Of a stretch of DNA of 64,000 bases, positions 28,876-34,193 are shown one piece after another. The notes under the pieces are model-generated. The model was not told the DNA's origin. It did not search any database and saw only the letters and a list, made by a program, of their open reading frames with translations. Position numbers and translations under genes: made by a program. Source of the DNA: Trichocoleus desertorum ATA4-8-CV12 (lineage in GTDB: Bacteria; Cyanobacteriota; Cyanobacteriia; FACHB-46); contig JAHHIL010000005.1 in NCBI GenBank assembly GCA_019358975.1, forward strand, positions 124,001-188,000, given 5' to 3'. How positions within the stretch are numbered: position 1 is the stretch's first letter; each line of letters begins with the position of its first letter.

Positions 28876-29871
28876 ATGCCTAAAGTTAGTGTTTGCATTC
28901 CTACTTATAACCGAGCCCATCTGCTCCCCTATGCAGTCAATAGCGTTCTTCATCAAACTTACACAGATTTTGAACTATTGATTTGTGACGACGGCTCTAC
29001 CGATGCCACTCCTGAGGTGGTGAGTCAGTGGGACGATGCGCGGATTCGTTACATTCGTCATCCGGTCAATATTAAGCGCAGTAAGAATATGCGCTCTGGG
29101 TTTGAGGCGGCGGCTGGCACGTACTTTATCAAGTTTGACGATGATGATGCACTAACGCCGGAATTCTTAGAAAAAACTGTGGCGGTTTTAGATGTGAACC
29201 CGGATGTGGATTTTGTCTGCACCAATCATTGGATTATTAATCCAGCCGGAGAGCGTGAGGCGGCAGCAACCCAGGCCAATGCGGCCAAGTGGGGCAAAGA
29301 CAAGTTGCCAGCAGGTGTGATCCCTAACTTGGTTCATGAAACCTTTTTGCGCCAGAGCTTGCAGGTGGGTTCGACGCTGTTTCGCAAAGCTTGCTTGGAT
29401 GAAGTGGATTTCATGCGCTTTGAGGCGGATGGCTGTGAGGATTTTGATTTGTTGGTGCGGTTGGCGATCGCGGGGAAGCAGGGCTACTTTCTGCCAGAGT
29501 ATTTGATGGAATACCGCATGCACGGCGGCCAAAACAGCTTGCGCCAGAGTATCCATTTCTTGCGAGCAAAACTGTTCTGCCTCAACAGCTATCGCTTTGA
29601 TGAGAGTGATTTGGAACGGCAGCGGACCAGAAAAGCAGCAGGCTTGAAGCAAGATCTCGCTTTGAGGTTAATTGAGAAGGGTGATACGGCGGAAGGTCGC
29701 CAACTTTTGCAAGAAGCGAATCAAGTACTCGGCACCTCTAACCGCGCTAAGGCAGGTCTGGTGCTCTCCTACTTACCAGAGAGTCTGCGCCAAGTTGCGT
29801 TTAATTTATTCCGCCAAGTGCGATCGAAGGACTACGCGGAACAAGTACGCCAAGTGCAACCTTCTAGCTAA
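28876..29871 (+). CDS. Glycosyltransferase family 2
   Basis: 331 residues. The GT-A fold shows SVCIPTYNRAHLLPYAV, ICDDGSTDATPEVV, and an acidic FIKFDDDDALTPEFL stretch for the DxD metal site. A DGCEDFDLLVRLA stretch supplies the catalytic ED region. The C-terminal 80 residues are helical. It begins the divergent side of the three-gene glycosyltransferase cluster. It ends close to a repeat and the AT-rich ParA island, so this gene is probably the boundary of the native segment. Confidence 0.9.
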   Translation: MPKVSVCIPTYNRAHLLPYAVNSVLHQTYTDFELLICDDGSTDATPEVVSQWDDARIRYIRHPVNIKRSKNMRSGFEAAAGTYFIKFDDDDALTPEFLEKTVAVLDVNPDVDFVCTNHWIINPAGEREAAATQANAAKWGKDKLPAGVIPNLVHETFLRQSLQVGSTLFRKACLDEVDFMRFEADGCEDFDLLVRLAIAGKQGYFLPEYLMEYRMHGGQNSLRQSIHFLRAKLFCLNSYRFDESDLERQRTRKAAGLKQDLALRLIEKGDTAEGRQLLQEANQVLGTSNRAKAGLVLSYLPESLRQVAFNLFRQVRSKDYAEQVRQVQPSS

Positions 29872-29930
29872 GTTTGAAGGATGAAAAAAGTGGGGAGTTA
29901 GAGCGATCGCCCAATTAACCCAAACAAACC

Positions 29931-29962
29931 CGTAGCGTGTGTTAGGCGCAGCCGTAACGCAT
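29931..29962. repeat. Dispersed GTAGCGTGTGTTAGGCGCAG-type repeat at island edge
   Basis: GTAGCGTGTGTTAGGCGCAG followed by CCGTAACGCA can form an imperfect hairpin around its centre. Sequences of this type are scattered in cyanobacterial genomes. Here it lies 23 bases beyond the 3' end of the ParB-like gene, at the edge of the AT-rich island. Confidence 0.6.
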
Positions 29963-29985
29963 GATTAAACATGACTGATGGCGAT

Positions 29986-30810
29986 CTAGAATATTTTTCC
30001 TATTTGTCTTAATTTGTTGTAAGTACTGCTACCAAAGTCTTTGATTTTTTCTTTTGTATCGGTTTTGGTTGAAAGTTTTAGATTACTCCAAGTGAGGATT
30101 CTGTCCGAAGCTTTCCAGTACTCAATTGCCTTTAAAGCTGCCCTTCTTTGTTTATCACTGACTCCAATTCCTAATAGAGCATCATCAATCTCTTCTTGTG
30201 TAGATTCAAGTAAGTTTATTTTGGGTGGGGCAAGCTCTTCGATTTTCTGGCTTAGCCCCTCAATTGCAGAATATAAACGATTAATTCTACTATCTATTTG
30301 TTCTAGCCTATCAACTATAATGCTGCTTGTATTACCGCTAGGAGCAGACGCTAGTTTATTAATACTTGAAACAATAGGCTGAAGTTTTTCATTGAGAATT
30401 TCAGTAATAGATTGGTCTGTTTTACCTTCGACTTTCTTTTCTGATCTAGTCTCTAAATTACCTACTAACTGCTCCATTTCTTCCTTAGTGGCAGCAGCTT
30501 GTTCATCGTCCATATCAAAAACCCAGACCCAAACTTTTTCAAGTTCAAGTTCTTTGGCAGCAATTAACCAATCTGCACCATAAACAACTTCATACTCTTC
30601 ATCTTCGTAGGCATCGCTACGACGTACAACCAAATTCAATAAATTACTACCCTGAGTCTTGAGGTTTTCCTTTAACAGCTCTAATCTCTCAGAAGAAACA
30701 TGAGAATTTGTTATCGGGACCGCAATCAGAAATGTGTCTAATTGACCATGATTGATTGGCTGAGGCTTAAGAAATTTTTTGATATTCTTTTGGCGTTCAG
30801 ATGAGTTCAT
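29986..30810 (-). CDS. ParB/Srx-fold partner protein of the nuclease-ParA fusion
   Basis: 274 residues from the ATG at 30810, which lies two bases after the stop of the upstream nuclease-ParA gene. The open frame extends 19 codons into that gene, but the later ATG is the natural one. Residues 25-110 resemble a ParB/sulfiredoxin-like domain: FLIAVPITNSHVSSERLELL, LLNLVVRRSDAYEDEEYEVV and YGADWLIAAKELELEKVWVWVF. The position normally held by GxRRxxA reads GADWLIAAKEL, so the phosphate-binding arginines of CTP-type ParB are absent. Residues 130-195 form a coiled coil. The C-terminal 70 residues (LLGIGVSDKQRRAALKAIE ... IKDFGSSTYNKLRQIGKIF) are helical and could be a hairpin-type DNA-binding domain. 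No standard ParB HTH is visible. Confidence 0.7.
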   Translation of the reverse strand: MNSSERQKNIKKFLKPQPINHGQLDTFLIAVPITNSHVSSERLELLKENLKTQGSNLLNLVVRRSDAYEDEEYEVVYGADWLIAAKELELEKVWVWVFDMDDEQAAATKEEMEQLVGNLETRSEKKVEGKTDQSITEILNEKLQPIVSSINKLASAPSGNTSSIIVDRLEQIDSRINRLYSAIEGLSQKIEELAPPKINLLESTQEEIDDALLGIGVSDKQRRAALKAIEYWKASDRILTWSNLKLSTKTDTKEKIKDFGSSTYNKLRQIGKIF

Positions 30811-30812
30811 GG

Positions 30813-32285
30813 TTATTCCTTTTCCTGAGTAATCTGAACGAGATGTTGAGCCAAATTCATATAACAATCAAAAGCACTTTGTGCAGATTCTTTATCTGAG
30901 CGTGCTAAGGAATCATCAAACTCTGCATGGCAAAGTGGATATCCCTTATCTGGAGTTGAAGAAACAATTTTGAGCTGGGGAATCCATGTTTCTTCAGGAA
31001 ACAAACTAATACTCTCACCTCCCGGAATACTTGCAAGTAGATTTTTGATCTTGTTAGCCATTTCCTGCTTTAAAGAAGCTGCTCTTCGGTCATACATACT
31101 CACGGCAATGCCTAGAATGGGTAGAGGTTCGTCTCTAGACTGCTCTACCTCTTGGGCTCTGCTAATTACATACTCTAATGCTCTGACAGGATAGGGGGAT
31201 AGTTGAGTAGGAATCAAAATACCAGATGCTGCCATCAATGAAATGGTATTGACTTTACCGAAGGATGGTGGTGGATCAATAAAAATAAAATCGTACTCTT
31301 GCTTATAGTTCTTCAGTTTTCTAGTCAGTACTCTATCGATATCTACGGTTTGAATTAAAGTGGGCTCCATATAACTTAATCGGATATGCGACGGGACTAA
31401 ATTTAACTCAATATCCTTCCACTGCTTGCGAATAATAGTATCTGGAAGAAGGGTTCTTGCCTCAGTTAATAAGTGAGTAATATCCTTTTTGCCCTGCTGT
31501 TCAACATCTGATAAGGGATCAATTCCCAACCCCATCGTTAGATTGGCTTGAGCATCAATATCAATTAAAAGAACTTTTTTTCCAAGTTTGCTGAGAGCCG
31601 CTGCAAGATTAATAGTTGTAGTAGTTTTACCAACTCCACCCTTATTGTTAAAAACCGTAATAATCATACATTTATGTCCTTTGGGTGCTGAATTGGCTTC
31701 TTCTTTATCAACTTGAGGCTCAAGTTTTTGTTTTTTCTTAAAGATTCTAAGCATGTCTTGATTATCTAGTTCCTCTGCAATGCGATTAGCAAGCTGAAAA
31801 TAGATTTTTTCCTGACTTTTGTGAATGACACGATTAAGGTTTAAGCAAGTCGTTTTGCAAAGTATCTTGTGAAAGAATTTGAATTCTTGGGGTAGAGTGT
31901 TTTTTTCATAGTTTGCAACTACTACAATTTCTCCTTCGTAGTTGTAGAATATTCTAAAGAAACAACCATTGGTTAATAAACCAAATATGGCTTTTGATTC
32001 TCGTAAGTAGTTATTTATTTGCCAGACACTCTTTGTAATGTCCTTGCTTGGGGCTTTGACTTCAATTACTAAATAAGGTGAAGAGATTACTGGTAGATTC
32101 TGAGGTTGCACTAGAAAATCTAGCTTGCTTTTGCCAATTGGAGCTTGGGTTCGCCAATCAGAACCACTATAGCCAAGAGTTTGTAGAAGCGGGATGATAA
32201 CTTTGTGTTCTACGTCCGATTCACTACTGTAAGGAGTAATTGAATGCAAAAAGTTTAGTGAATTCAGACTGGATGAGGAATTCAT
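30813..32285 (-). CDS. Fusion of HsdR-N-like PD-(D/E)xK nuclease domain and ParA ATPase
   Basis: A single 490-residue polypeptide. Residues 18-135 resemble the type I restriction HsdR N-terminal nuclease domain: Glu26 (SDVEHKVIIPLLQTLGY), Asp56 (SKLDFLV), Glu75-x-Lys77 (LVIEVKAP) and a following Gln89. Together these form a full PD-(D/E)xK set. Residues 136-205 are a helical, charged linker. Residues 207-485 are a complete ParA: deviant Walker A NKGGVGKTTTT (214-224), the DIDAQANLT motif, and Walker B FIFIDPPPS. A GTG or ATG start other than 32285 is not evident, though Shine-Dalgarno pairing there is poor. The ParB-like gene follows after two bases. AT-rich, with no HIP1 site. Families are clear; the combined role is unknown. 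Confidence 0.85.
   Translation of the reverse strand: MNSSSSLNSLNFLHSITPYSSESDVEHKVIIPLLQTLGYSGSDWRTQAPIGKSKLDFLVQPQNLPVISSPYLVIEVKAPSKDITKSVWQINNYLRESKAIFGLLTNGCFFRIFYNYEGEIVVVANYEKNTLPQEFKFFHKILCKTTCLNLNRVIHKSQEKIYFQLANRIAEELDNQDMLRIFKKKQKLEPQVDKEEANSAPKGHKCMIITVFNNKGGVGKTTTTINLAAALSKLGKKVLLIDIDAQANLTMGLGIDPLSDVEQQGKKDITHLLTEARTLLPDTIIRKQWKDIELNLVPSHIRLSYMEPTLIQTVDIDRVLTRKLKNYKQEYDFIFIDPPPSFGKVNTISLMAASGILIPTQLSPYPVRALEYVISRAQEVEQSRDEPLPILGIAVSMYDRRAASLKQEMANKIKNLLASIPGGESISLFPEETWIPQLKIVSSTPDKGYPLCHAEFDDSLARSDKESAQSAFDCYMNLAQHLVQITQEKE
31677..31682 (-). promoter_or_regulatory. Possible internal ribosome binding site for a stand-alone ParA
   Basis: AAAGGA lies nine bases before the ATG of Met207 (31665-31667) inside the fusion gene. 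Starting there would give MIITVFNNKGGVGKTT..., the exact opening of ordinary ParA proteins. It may allow two products from one gene. Confidence 0.45.
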
Positions 32286-32355
32286 GCAACCAGCAAATTT
32301 GAGTGGCTTGTATGAGTTTAGCTATCAGTTTTGAAATAGGCACACCTTAAAGCTT

Positions 32356-32384
32356 AATTTAGAGTAACTTCTAACAAAAGTTAA
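32356..32384 (-). promoter_or_regulatory. Promoter with overlapping operator-like inverted repeat for the nuclease-ParA gene
   Basis: On the minus strand TTAACT (32384-32379), a 17-base spacer and TAAATT (32361-32356) make a sigma-70-type promoter about 70 bases upstream of the fusion gene. The inverted repeat TAACTT-N7-AAGTTA (32365-32383) covers the -35 box and spacer. That is where an autorepressor would bind, as in many par operons. Confidence 0.45.
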
Positions 32385-32395
32385 AGAAATTAGAC

Positions 32396-32431
32396 AAAAA
32401 TAAGCAGGAGGTAAAACACGCCTCCTGCTTA
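32396..32431 (-). terminator. Rho-independent terminator of the HHL1-like gene
   Basis: TAAGCAGGAGG (32401-32411) and CCTCCTGCTTA (32421-32431) are perfectly complementary with a 9-base loop. On the minus strand the stem is followed by a T run (TATTTTTGTC). It separates the HHL1-like gene from the nuclease-ParA promoter. Confidence 0.85.
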
Positions 32432-32506
32432 CGCTACTGCAAAGTCTTGAATATCTAACTATTCAGTTCTTGCATAAAATCTTGATCAAAAGCTTAGCAT
32501 TTGGAA

Positions 32507-32935
32507 CTAGCTGCGCTTGAAGAGAGAGGTGACGCGGTTGGTGACGTTGGCGATCGCAGATTGGAACGCATTGGCAACTGCTTGCTCAGGCTTCACGGCA
32601 ACTTGGATGGGTTCGTCGCTAAATTCCTTCAAGCGATAGCCGTATTCTAAATTGGCTTGGTTTTTGCGGAGGATGGGGAATAGGCGGAAGGCACCTTCGC
32701 GTAAATCTTTCTCGCTGTCGTAGATCGCCATATTGATTTGGCTGCTTCGCTTCACCGCGATCGAGCCGACCGGATACCACTGCTTCTTACCCTGAATTCG
32801 CATATAGATATTGAACTCAGGCACCCCATCAGTTTTCATCTTGTCGTACTGCTTCGAAGCTTCAGTCCGCTTGACTGCCTTCTTAGAAACAGACTTTTTT
32901 GGGGTTTCTGCCTTACCAAATCCACCAGTCGCCAC
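32507..32935 (-). CDS. HHL1-like conserved cyanobacterial protein
   Basis: 142 residues. A basic, disordered N-terminus (1-35) is followed by a compact domain with FNIYMRIQGKKQWYPVGSIA, INMAIYDSEKDLREGAFRLF and LEYGYRLKEFSDEPIQV, then an Ala-rich helix and a basic tail. This pattern is shared with cyanobacterial relatives of plant HHL1, a chloroplast protein that helps protect or repair photosystem II in high light. The similarity is recognised by eye only. It is monocistronic, with a strong terminator, and contains normal HIP1 sites, unlike the adjacent island. Confidence 0.6.
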   Translation of the reverse strand: MATGGFGKAETPKKSVSKKAVKRTEASKQYDKMKTDGVPEFNIYMRIQGKKQWYPVGSIAVKRSSQINMAIYDSEKDLREGAFRLFPILRKNQANLEYGYRLKEFSDEPIQVAVKPEQAVANAFQSAIANVTNRVTSLFKRS

Positions 32936-33254
32936 AGCGATCGCTCCTTGCTCTCTTAAGGAAAGTTTACAGTATTTTCAGAAATGAGAGAACTAGCGAG
33001 AGTGCGGATACCCACCCGATCCCCATTACGCTAAGATGCAGTTTCTAGCGACTTCAGAATCAGGTAAAAGCGCCAGCTATCGAGTTATTCTTAGGGGCCA
33101 GAGTGGCGATCGCCACCCCAAAGATTCCCCCTGAATAAAGTTTAAAGTTTGGTGCCACTACGCTTATGATCTGGACTGCATGTTATGTCGTAGGTGCCTA
33201 ACCCCCTAGCCCACCCTGGCTGGGTCATGCATCACCCTTGAGAGGACGCAACGA
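32936..33254. other. Non-coding gap between HHL1-like gene and orphan parA
   Basis: 319 bases between divergent genes with no credible ORF. It contains two HIP1-like sites (32938-32944 and near 33107), AT-rich runs around 32960-32980 and 33135-33150, and a Shine-Dalgarno-like GAGAGGA eight bases before the parA ATG. It lacks iterons or clear parS-like repeats. Confidence 0.45.
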
Positions 33255-34193
33255 ATGGGATTTATCATCGCAACTGCAAACATGAAAGGTGGCGTTGGCA
33301 AAACGACCCTCACCATCAACTTAGCCACTGCCCTGGCCAAAAATCATGGCAAGCGAGTTTTAATTGTCGATCTCGACACCCAAATCAGCGCCACCCTCAG
33401 TCTCATGGCCCCTGGTGACTTCGCCAAACTCCGTAACAACAAGCGCACCCTGAGGCATTTAGTGCATCGCGCTATTTATAGCGACAAACAATTGCCTAAT
33501 CTTATCCCCGAAGCTATCCAAGCCTACATGTGTAATGTCAAAGGGTTGGATCTATTGCCCGGAGATATCGATTTATACGATGAATTTTTAGTCTCCGAAA
33601 TGCTGTTTGAAAAAGCTACAAAAGACAGTACCAAAAACTTTGAACAAGTTTGGAATAACTTTGAAAAAGGACTAATTTCAAGTATTCTGCAACCTGTTCT
33701 TAAAGATTACGATTTCATCATTCTCGACTGCGCTCCTGGTTACAATCTTTTGACTCGAAGCGCTCTCTTAGCCAGTGATTTCTACGTCTTGCCTGCCAAA
33801 CCCGAACCACTCTCTCTGATCGGGATTCAACTGCTCGAACGCCGCATTGCCAAACTACGAGAGACTCATAAAGAAGGTGCACCAGTCAAGATTCAACTGC
33901 TGGGCATTACTTTTATGCTCTCTGGCAACTTGCTCACGGGTCGCTATTACAGCCAAGTCATGAAGCGGGTGAACGAAGACTATAGTGAAGCCAAAATCTT
34001 CAAAACTCGGATTCCTGTGGATGTGAATGTCTCCAAGGCTGTTGACTCATTCACACCTGTGGTACTCAGCAATCCTGGCTCATCGGGTGCTAAAGCTTTT
34101 GCAGGACTAGCTCAAGAATTTCTGCAAAAACTCACCGTTGCCGCTCGCATCGACCAGAAACCCAACAAATTCGCTCTCGCAGATATGGAATAA
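33255..34193 (+). CDS. ParA-family ATPase, orphan
   Basis: 312 residues. The deviant Walker A is MKGGVGKTTLT (10-20) with the signature Lys11. DLDTQISATLSL and FIILDCAPGYN supply the A' and B motifs. A PAKPEPLSLIGI stretch follows. The mid region (about 65-150) is longer than in plasmid ParA, with a charged DLYDEFLVSEMLFEKA segment. No ParB-like, McdB-like or other partner gene is adjacent; neighbours are the HHL1-like and VOC genes. The presence of the signature lysine argues against the carboxysome protein McdA, which lacks it. Base composition is like the rest of the chromosome. It may position a cellular cargo. It is unlike the island ParA in sequence. Confidence 0.85.
   Translation: MGFIIATANMKGGVGKTTLTINLATALAKNHGKRVLIVDLDTQISATLSLMAPGDFAKLRNNKRTLRHLVHRAIYSDKQLPNLIPEAIQAYMCNVKGLDLLPGDIDLYDEFLVSEMLFEKATKDSTKNFEQVWNNFEKGLISSILQPVLKDYDFIILDCAPGYNLLTRSALLASDFYVLPAKPEPLSLIGIQLLERRIAKLRETHKEGAPVKIQLLGITFMLSGNLLTGRYYSQVMKRVNEDYSEAKIFKTRIPVDVNVSKAVDSFTPVVLSNPGSSGAKAFAGLAQEFLQKLTVAARIDQKPNKFALADME

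Follow-up and report, generated by a model that had tools for sequence, protein, structure and literature searches.

Described systems related to the cassette

The N-terminal nuclease of HsdR in type I restriction systems (PF04313/PF13588) has the same fold, E...D...ExK signature and QxxxY motif as the N-terminal domain of the cyanobacterial fusion protein described here. However, the fusion and its operon have no SF2 helicase motor and no HsdM or HsdS, which rules out a type I restriction enzyme; the motor is instead a ParA dimer-type ATPase. ParABS partition systems (Soj/Spo0J; plasmid ParA/ParB) resemble the operon in that a complete deviant Walker ParA is followed by a ParB_N-type gene. 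By contrast, the present operon has a nuclease fused to ParA and forms an exchangeable chromosomal cassette, and its membership of ParABS was rejected given that the GERR box and the helix-turn-helix (HTH) of the partner and any parS-like repeats or iterons at the locus (29850-33300) are all absent. The McdA/B system of carboxysome positioning and other cyanobacterial orphan ParA systems also combine a ParA-family ATPase with a small dedicated partner, but they contain no nuclease domain and their partner is not of the ParB_N type.

In the HerA/FtsK-nuclease capture systems, which are of the DndFGH/SspH type and related to BREX (PMC12839542), an NTPase is coupled to a nuclease as in the cassette, although the NTPase class and the subunits are unrelated; a module of this type occupies the cassette's slot in a congener (G001). 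The type IV restriction system GmrSD (PMC4619093) is similar in that GmrS, of ParB/Srx fold, works with a nuclease in DNA restriction, but GmrD is an HNH rather than a PD-(D/E)XK nuclease, and GmrSD has no ParA. A search of the open-access literature found no description of the fusion, which may be described elsewhere; the parts are known, and their combination appears to be new.

An HsdR_N-type nuclease domain and a ParA ATPase in one polypeptide

The window, that is, the whole stretch of DNA analysed, comprises 64,000 nucleotides of Trichocoleus desertorum ATA4-8-CV12. The fusion gene and its surroundings have the following organization:

30813..32285, minus strand: HsdR_N-type PD-(D/E)XK nuclease domain fused to a ParA ATPase, 490 aa (Pfam, alignment, AlphaFold2 and fold search)
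31866..32258, minus strand: nuclease domain, residues 10-140 (Pfam HSDR_N_2/HSDR_N, 82-member alignment, AlphaFold2 fold and purifying selection)
31668..31859, minus strand: linker, residues ~143-206, helical and then disordered, fast-evolving (pLDDT and Ka/Ks)
30813..31667, minus strand: ParA domain, residues 207-490 (AAA_31, E 3e-46; Soj/ParA as best fold matches)
29986..30810, minus strand: ParB-like partner, 274 aa, with a degenerate ParB_N domain, a coiled coil and a C-terminal module
29977..32501, no strand assigned: exchangeable segment (blastn breakpoints against the congener loci L280 and L281)

Pfam analysis assigned HSDR_N_2 to residues 25-112 of the fusion (E 3e-6; 27.6 bits against a cut-off of 25), HSDR_N with 25.8 bits (cut-off 25.1) and AAA_31/ParA to residues 208-386 (E 3e-46), and revealed no helicase domain. 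The motifs KGGVGKTT (residues 215-222), Asp242/Asp244 and Asp337-x-Pro-Pro make up a complete deviant Walker set, which identifies the fusion as a member of the ParA/MinD deviant Walker ATPases. The preliminary description of this DNA, which had proposed an uninterrupted 490-residue frame joining a nuclease domain to a full deviant Walker ParA, is borne out: the minus strand carries a single unbroken ORF of 490 codons, with HSDR_N_2 above its cut-off and the ParA motifs intact. No family spanning the whole fusion was found in Pfam, NCBIfam, PHROGs or PADLOC, and the PADLOC 2023 models gave partial ParA or HSDR_N matches only.

Distribution in cyanobacteria

A whole-genome search of 96 relatives found full-length versions in about 20 of them, with identities of 41-66%. 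Using a three-clade profile search, the full-length fusion was detected in at least 74 of the 386 cyanobacterial genomes sampled, a genome being counted, among the matches listed, when both domains fell in one match. Intact copies in dozens of independent genomes rule out chance and an assembly or frame error, the possibility left in the preliminary description that the two halves would prove separate in relatives. Split or truncated copies do occur among cyanobacteria; one clade-2 copy (L233:5077-6433) is split exactly at the nuclease/ParA junction into overlapping frames, by natural fission or a frameshift. The fusion tree has three deep clades, the order of whose deep forks is unsure as the quick tree flags long branches. 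The window copy belongs to clade 1, and the same genome carries a second copy, of clade 3 (G000:C44, locus L260).

Samples from three further phyla, those to which an alphaproteobacterial, a Bacteroidota and a Bacillota genome belong, comprised 399, 278 and 280 genomes (957 in total); at E <= 1e-7 they gave no fusion, only other HSDR_N proteins. A 360-aa protein (L323) considered as a non-cyanobacterial fusion was rejected, since it matches just part of the ParA profile and is too short to hold both domains. So far, the cassette has been found almost only in cyanobacteria.

Clades 1 and 2 lie on chromosome-size contigs in closed genomes and are absent from the 72,556 plasmids of PLSDB, on which ground a plasmid origin was rejected for them. 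Clade 3 members are carried by Nostoc sp. UHCC 0870, on two of its plasmids, and by one putative viral contig of IMG/VR (L181). The sole plasmid match that covers more than 80% of the nuclease domain is 27% identical and sits inside a BREX operon, and the phage records gave a match to the ParA half only.

Predicted structure and conservation of the nuclease domain

The AlphaFold2 model of the fusion was built from six sequences and has a mean pLDDT of 76. In this model, residues 10-140 adopt the alpha-beta-beta-beta-alpha-beta topology of PD-(D/E)XK enzymes (block pLDDT mostly 83-94, one 64), in the order helix 22-36, strands 44-50, 53-59 and 72-76, helix 83-97 and strand 101-105. The model places Glu22, Asp56 and Glu75-x-Lys77 as in PD-(D/E)XK enzymes, and from its topology we infer that the catalytic residues cluster; the domain also has Gln89xxxTyr93. 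Residues 178-203 of the linker have a pLDDT below 50. Structural similarity search of the full-length model using Foldseek was dominated by the ParA half, for which Soj/ParA were the top PDB matches. Comparison of the nuclease domain with PDB sequences yielded BpuSI (E 0.06) and HsdR (3h1t, E 0.27), both sub-significant. The N-terminal domain has the sequence motifs and, in the model, the topology of a PD-(D/E)XK (HsdR_N) nuclease, for which cleavage activity is predicted.

In an alignment of 82 non-identical fusion homologues, Glu75 and Lys77 are each conserved in 82/82, and Glu22 and Asp56 each in 81/81 of the members having the column. Glu26 is kept in clades 1 and 2 (61/63) but not in clade 3, and therefore Glu22, rather than Glu26, is the invariant acidic helix residue in these sequences. 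Position 89 is Gln in clades 1 and 3 and Arg or Lys in clade 2. Among the catalytic residues first proposed, Asp56, Glu75 and Lys77 hold throughout, Glu26 gives way to Glu22, and Gln89 holds for clades 1 and 3 but not for clade 2. In the ParA domain, residues Lys215-Thr222 (KGGVGKTT), Asp244 and Asp337 are invariant or nearly so across the 82 members. Ka/Ks values for the nuclease domain, taken from eight close pairs, lie within 0.06-0.40, and that of the linker exceeds the values of the flanking domains in most pairs. Since its catalytic residues are invariant and its Ka/Ks is low, the nuclease domain is maintained by purifying selection and is probably active.

A ParB-like partner with a variable C-terminal module

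The operon consists of the fusion and the ParB-like gene only, with the ATG of the latter 2 nt past the fusion stop codon. As counted by eye, the ParB-like gene proposed to accompany the fusion is indeed directly downstream in 62 of 69 clade-1/2 loci (three of the other seven are at contig ends) and in 16 of 19 clade-3 loci. No partner was detected at the loci L045, L054, L223 and L240.

The ParB_N domain of the partner matched Noc (7ol9, E 1e-8), Spo0J and ParB in the PDB. In place of the GERR (CTP) box, the window copy has GADW, and the family has GADW, GAEW or GEEW. A ParB HTH was looked for in the partner and not found; following the coiled coil, the relatives carry C-terminal modules that differ from one another, including an HhH_3 tail (L052, E 2e-14; L044, E 4e-6), an HeH/SAP-like tail (L037, E 3e-6, just under the cut-off) and a Rho_N/SAP tail (L181, E 4e-8). 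The C-terminus of the window partner, which sits where relatives carry HhH or SAP/HeH, was not scored by any family. At the locus, no parS-like or iteron repeats were found, only chance-like two-copy repeats in 29850-33300. The partner is ParB-like as first described, but with the GERR box gone, an HhH or SAP-type tail in relatives where ParB has its HTH, and no parS-like repeats at the locus, a true site-recognising ParB is not supported.

The cassette occupies an exchangeable site

Comparison by blastn with two congeners, G001 and G002, revealed a slot of ~2.5 kb that is bounded by GT and HHL1 in all three genomes and differs in content in each. The flanks are 87-91% identical in nucleotide sequence, and identity ends at window position 29976 (29894 for G001) and resumes at 32502 (32508). 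In G001, the slot has genes of 290, 671 and 866 aa, including a KAP/AAA NTPase and a DEDD exonuclease-PD-(D/E)XK-FtsK protein that matched SspH in PADLOC (4e-65). This cargo (L281:3844-9433), composed of the 866-aa exonuclease-nuclease-FtsK protein, the KAP NTPase and the 290-aa protein, is likely a defence system in its own right. In G002, the slot contains a 259-aa PD-(D/E)XK-like protein (E-x-Q variant; PADLOC candidate family PDC-S11, 4e-14), an unfused 310-aa ParA and a 140-aa protein (L280:6300-8456). This unfused nuclease and ParA operon, which may be a second ParA-nuclease system, occupies the exact position of the fused one in the window.

A second comparison, made in other genomes, was of L221, from clade 1, with L234, from clade 2: at the nucleotide level the solo ParA is 93% identical and the GT and IleRS genes are 85% identical, whereas the fusions are only 29% identical; judged from these sequences, the difference is a cassette replacement. 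In two further genera, the cassette adjoins a synteny breakpoint. A housekeeping reading based on shared synteny was dropped, since the cassette itself is swapped (G001/G002; L221/L234). Terminal repeats, transposon-like ends, iterons and tRNA attachment were looked for at the window locus, and none was found.

The conserved solo ParA (312 aa; window 33255-34193) belongs to the backbone: it lies beside the swap site in many cyanobacteria and is 97-99% identical in the congeners. The HHL1-like protein (window 32507-32935; Pfam PF20133) is related to a high-light protein of chloroplasts. A strong GC-rich inverted repeat at 32402-32430, AAGCAGGAGG...CCTCCTGCTT, lies between HHL1 and the fusion and is likely the HHL1 terminator, which would part the two transcripts. 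Neighbours outside the hotspot mostly gave no defence match among those tested; at L043:10653-15707, a 1684-aa neighbour of the fusion operon has a C-terminal Shedu (SduA) domain (E 4e-15).

Proposed function

Based on sequence evidence, we lean towards reading the operon as a chromosomal interference module that would defend against invading DNA. Defence is favoured over partition because the cassette is swapped, sits on the chromosome and has no parS-like repeats at its locus. That the slot is refilled with other nuclease/NTPase modules further suggests that these and the cassette share one general task, an attack on foreign DNA. The variable, hotspot location and the intact catalytic residues are those of a candidate defence system, and protection is predicted; the patchy presence (at least 74 of the 386 genomes), the Shedu-like domain of one neighbour and the BREX setting of the plasmid match to the nuclease domain count in the same direction. 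Against it count the clade-3 pairs found in a putative viral contig and, within a single Nostoc strain, two plasmids, as is seen for partition genes, the lack of a PADLOC family that covers the whole fusion, and the neighbours outside the hotspot, most of which, among those tested, gave no defence match. Among the options raised in the preliminary description, interference with plasmids or phages, in which ParA/ParB-like DNA engagement would be coupled to cleavage, is the best-supported, whereas a partition system with a resolving nuclease is weakened, as clades 1 and 2 are chromosomal, off all 72,556 plasmids and in a swap site.

We propose that the ParA domain would dimerise on ATP and bind DNA non-specifically, as expected from ParA biochemistry, and thereby load the tethered nuclease. 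The ParB_N-like partner might recognise a feature of foreign DNA, or its replication or condensation state, and might stimulate ATP hydrolysis or cluster ParA, as ParB does for ParA. The ParA dimers or clusters could then bring the nuclease domains together to cut DNA, as their conserved catalytic residues suggest. Control of nuclease loading and activation by the ParA ATP cycle and the ParB-like sensor is the most economical reading. More tentatively, the operon might represent a new immune class, in which ParA, otherwise a mover of DNA, would load and switch on the restriction-type nuclease fused to it, with the trigger coming from a ParB-like sensor whose DNA-binding tails are interchangeable.

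A ParAB-like partition module of the chromosome or of former plasmids, in which the nuclease fold anchors DNA or resolves tangled copies, is the leading alternative and is unlikely. The order of ParA and ParB-like genes, the Soj-like ParA and the match of the partner to Noc would fit such a role, and cyanobacteria are polyploid; however, the partner has neither the GERR box nor the ParB HTH, and the window locus has no parS-like repeats. The plasmid-borne clade-3 copies of Nostoc and the one on the putative viral contig also speak for partition, but plasmid unnamed4 already has two canonical ParA/ParB pairs and a ParM, and unnamed9 a ParA and a ParM, while clades 1 and 2 are on no plasmid. Cassette swapping and patchy presence are ill-suited to chromosome segregation.

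Less probable still is a cyanobacterial nuclease of DNA repair or chromosome processing that ParA positions on the nucleoid. HhH and SAP tails are a usual feature of repair proteins, and the family is ancient, phylum-wide and chromosomal, together with the IleRS/solo ParA backbone. Nevertheless, only some 20% of genomes have it, unrelated modules replace it in congeners, and alleles within near-identical flanks are 29% identical. An addiction or selfish cassette, toxin-antitoxin-like, whose partner restrains the nuclease and which post-segregational killing maintains, is improbable: the two-gene operon, frequent gain and loss and variable sites would suit it, but the effector comes first, is large and has its own ATPase, and the partner looks more like a DNA-binding ParB than like an antitoxin and is undetected at four loci.

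If the interference reading is correct, an ATPase of the ParA type, which works through DNA gradients, would drive DNA destruction, and immunity would be tied to the machinery of partition. The cassette would then be a candidate obstacle to both plasmids and phages in cyanobacteria, with a bearing on their genetic engineering. Even without a defence role, an apparently active nuclease, as predicted, on a nucleoid-binding ATPase, conserved at the depth of the phylum, would be an arrangement in need of explanation, and one open to direct testing.
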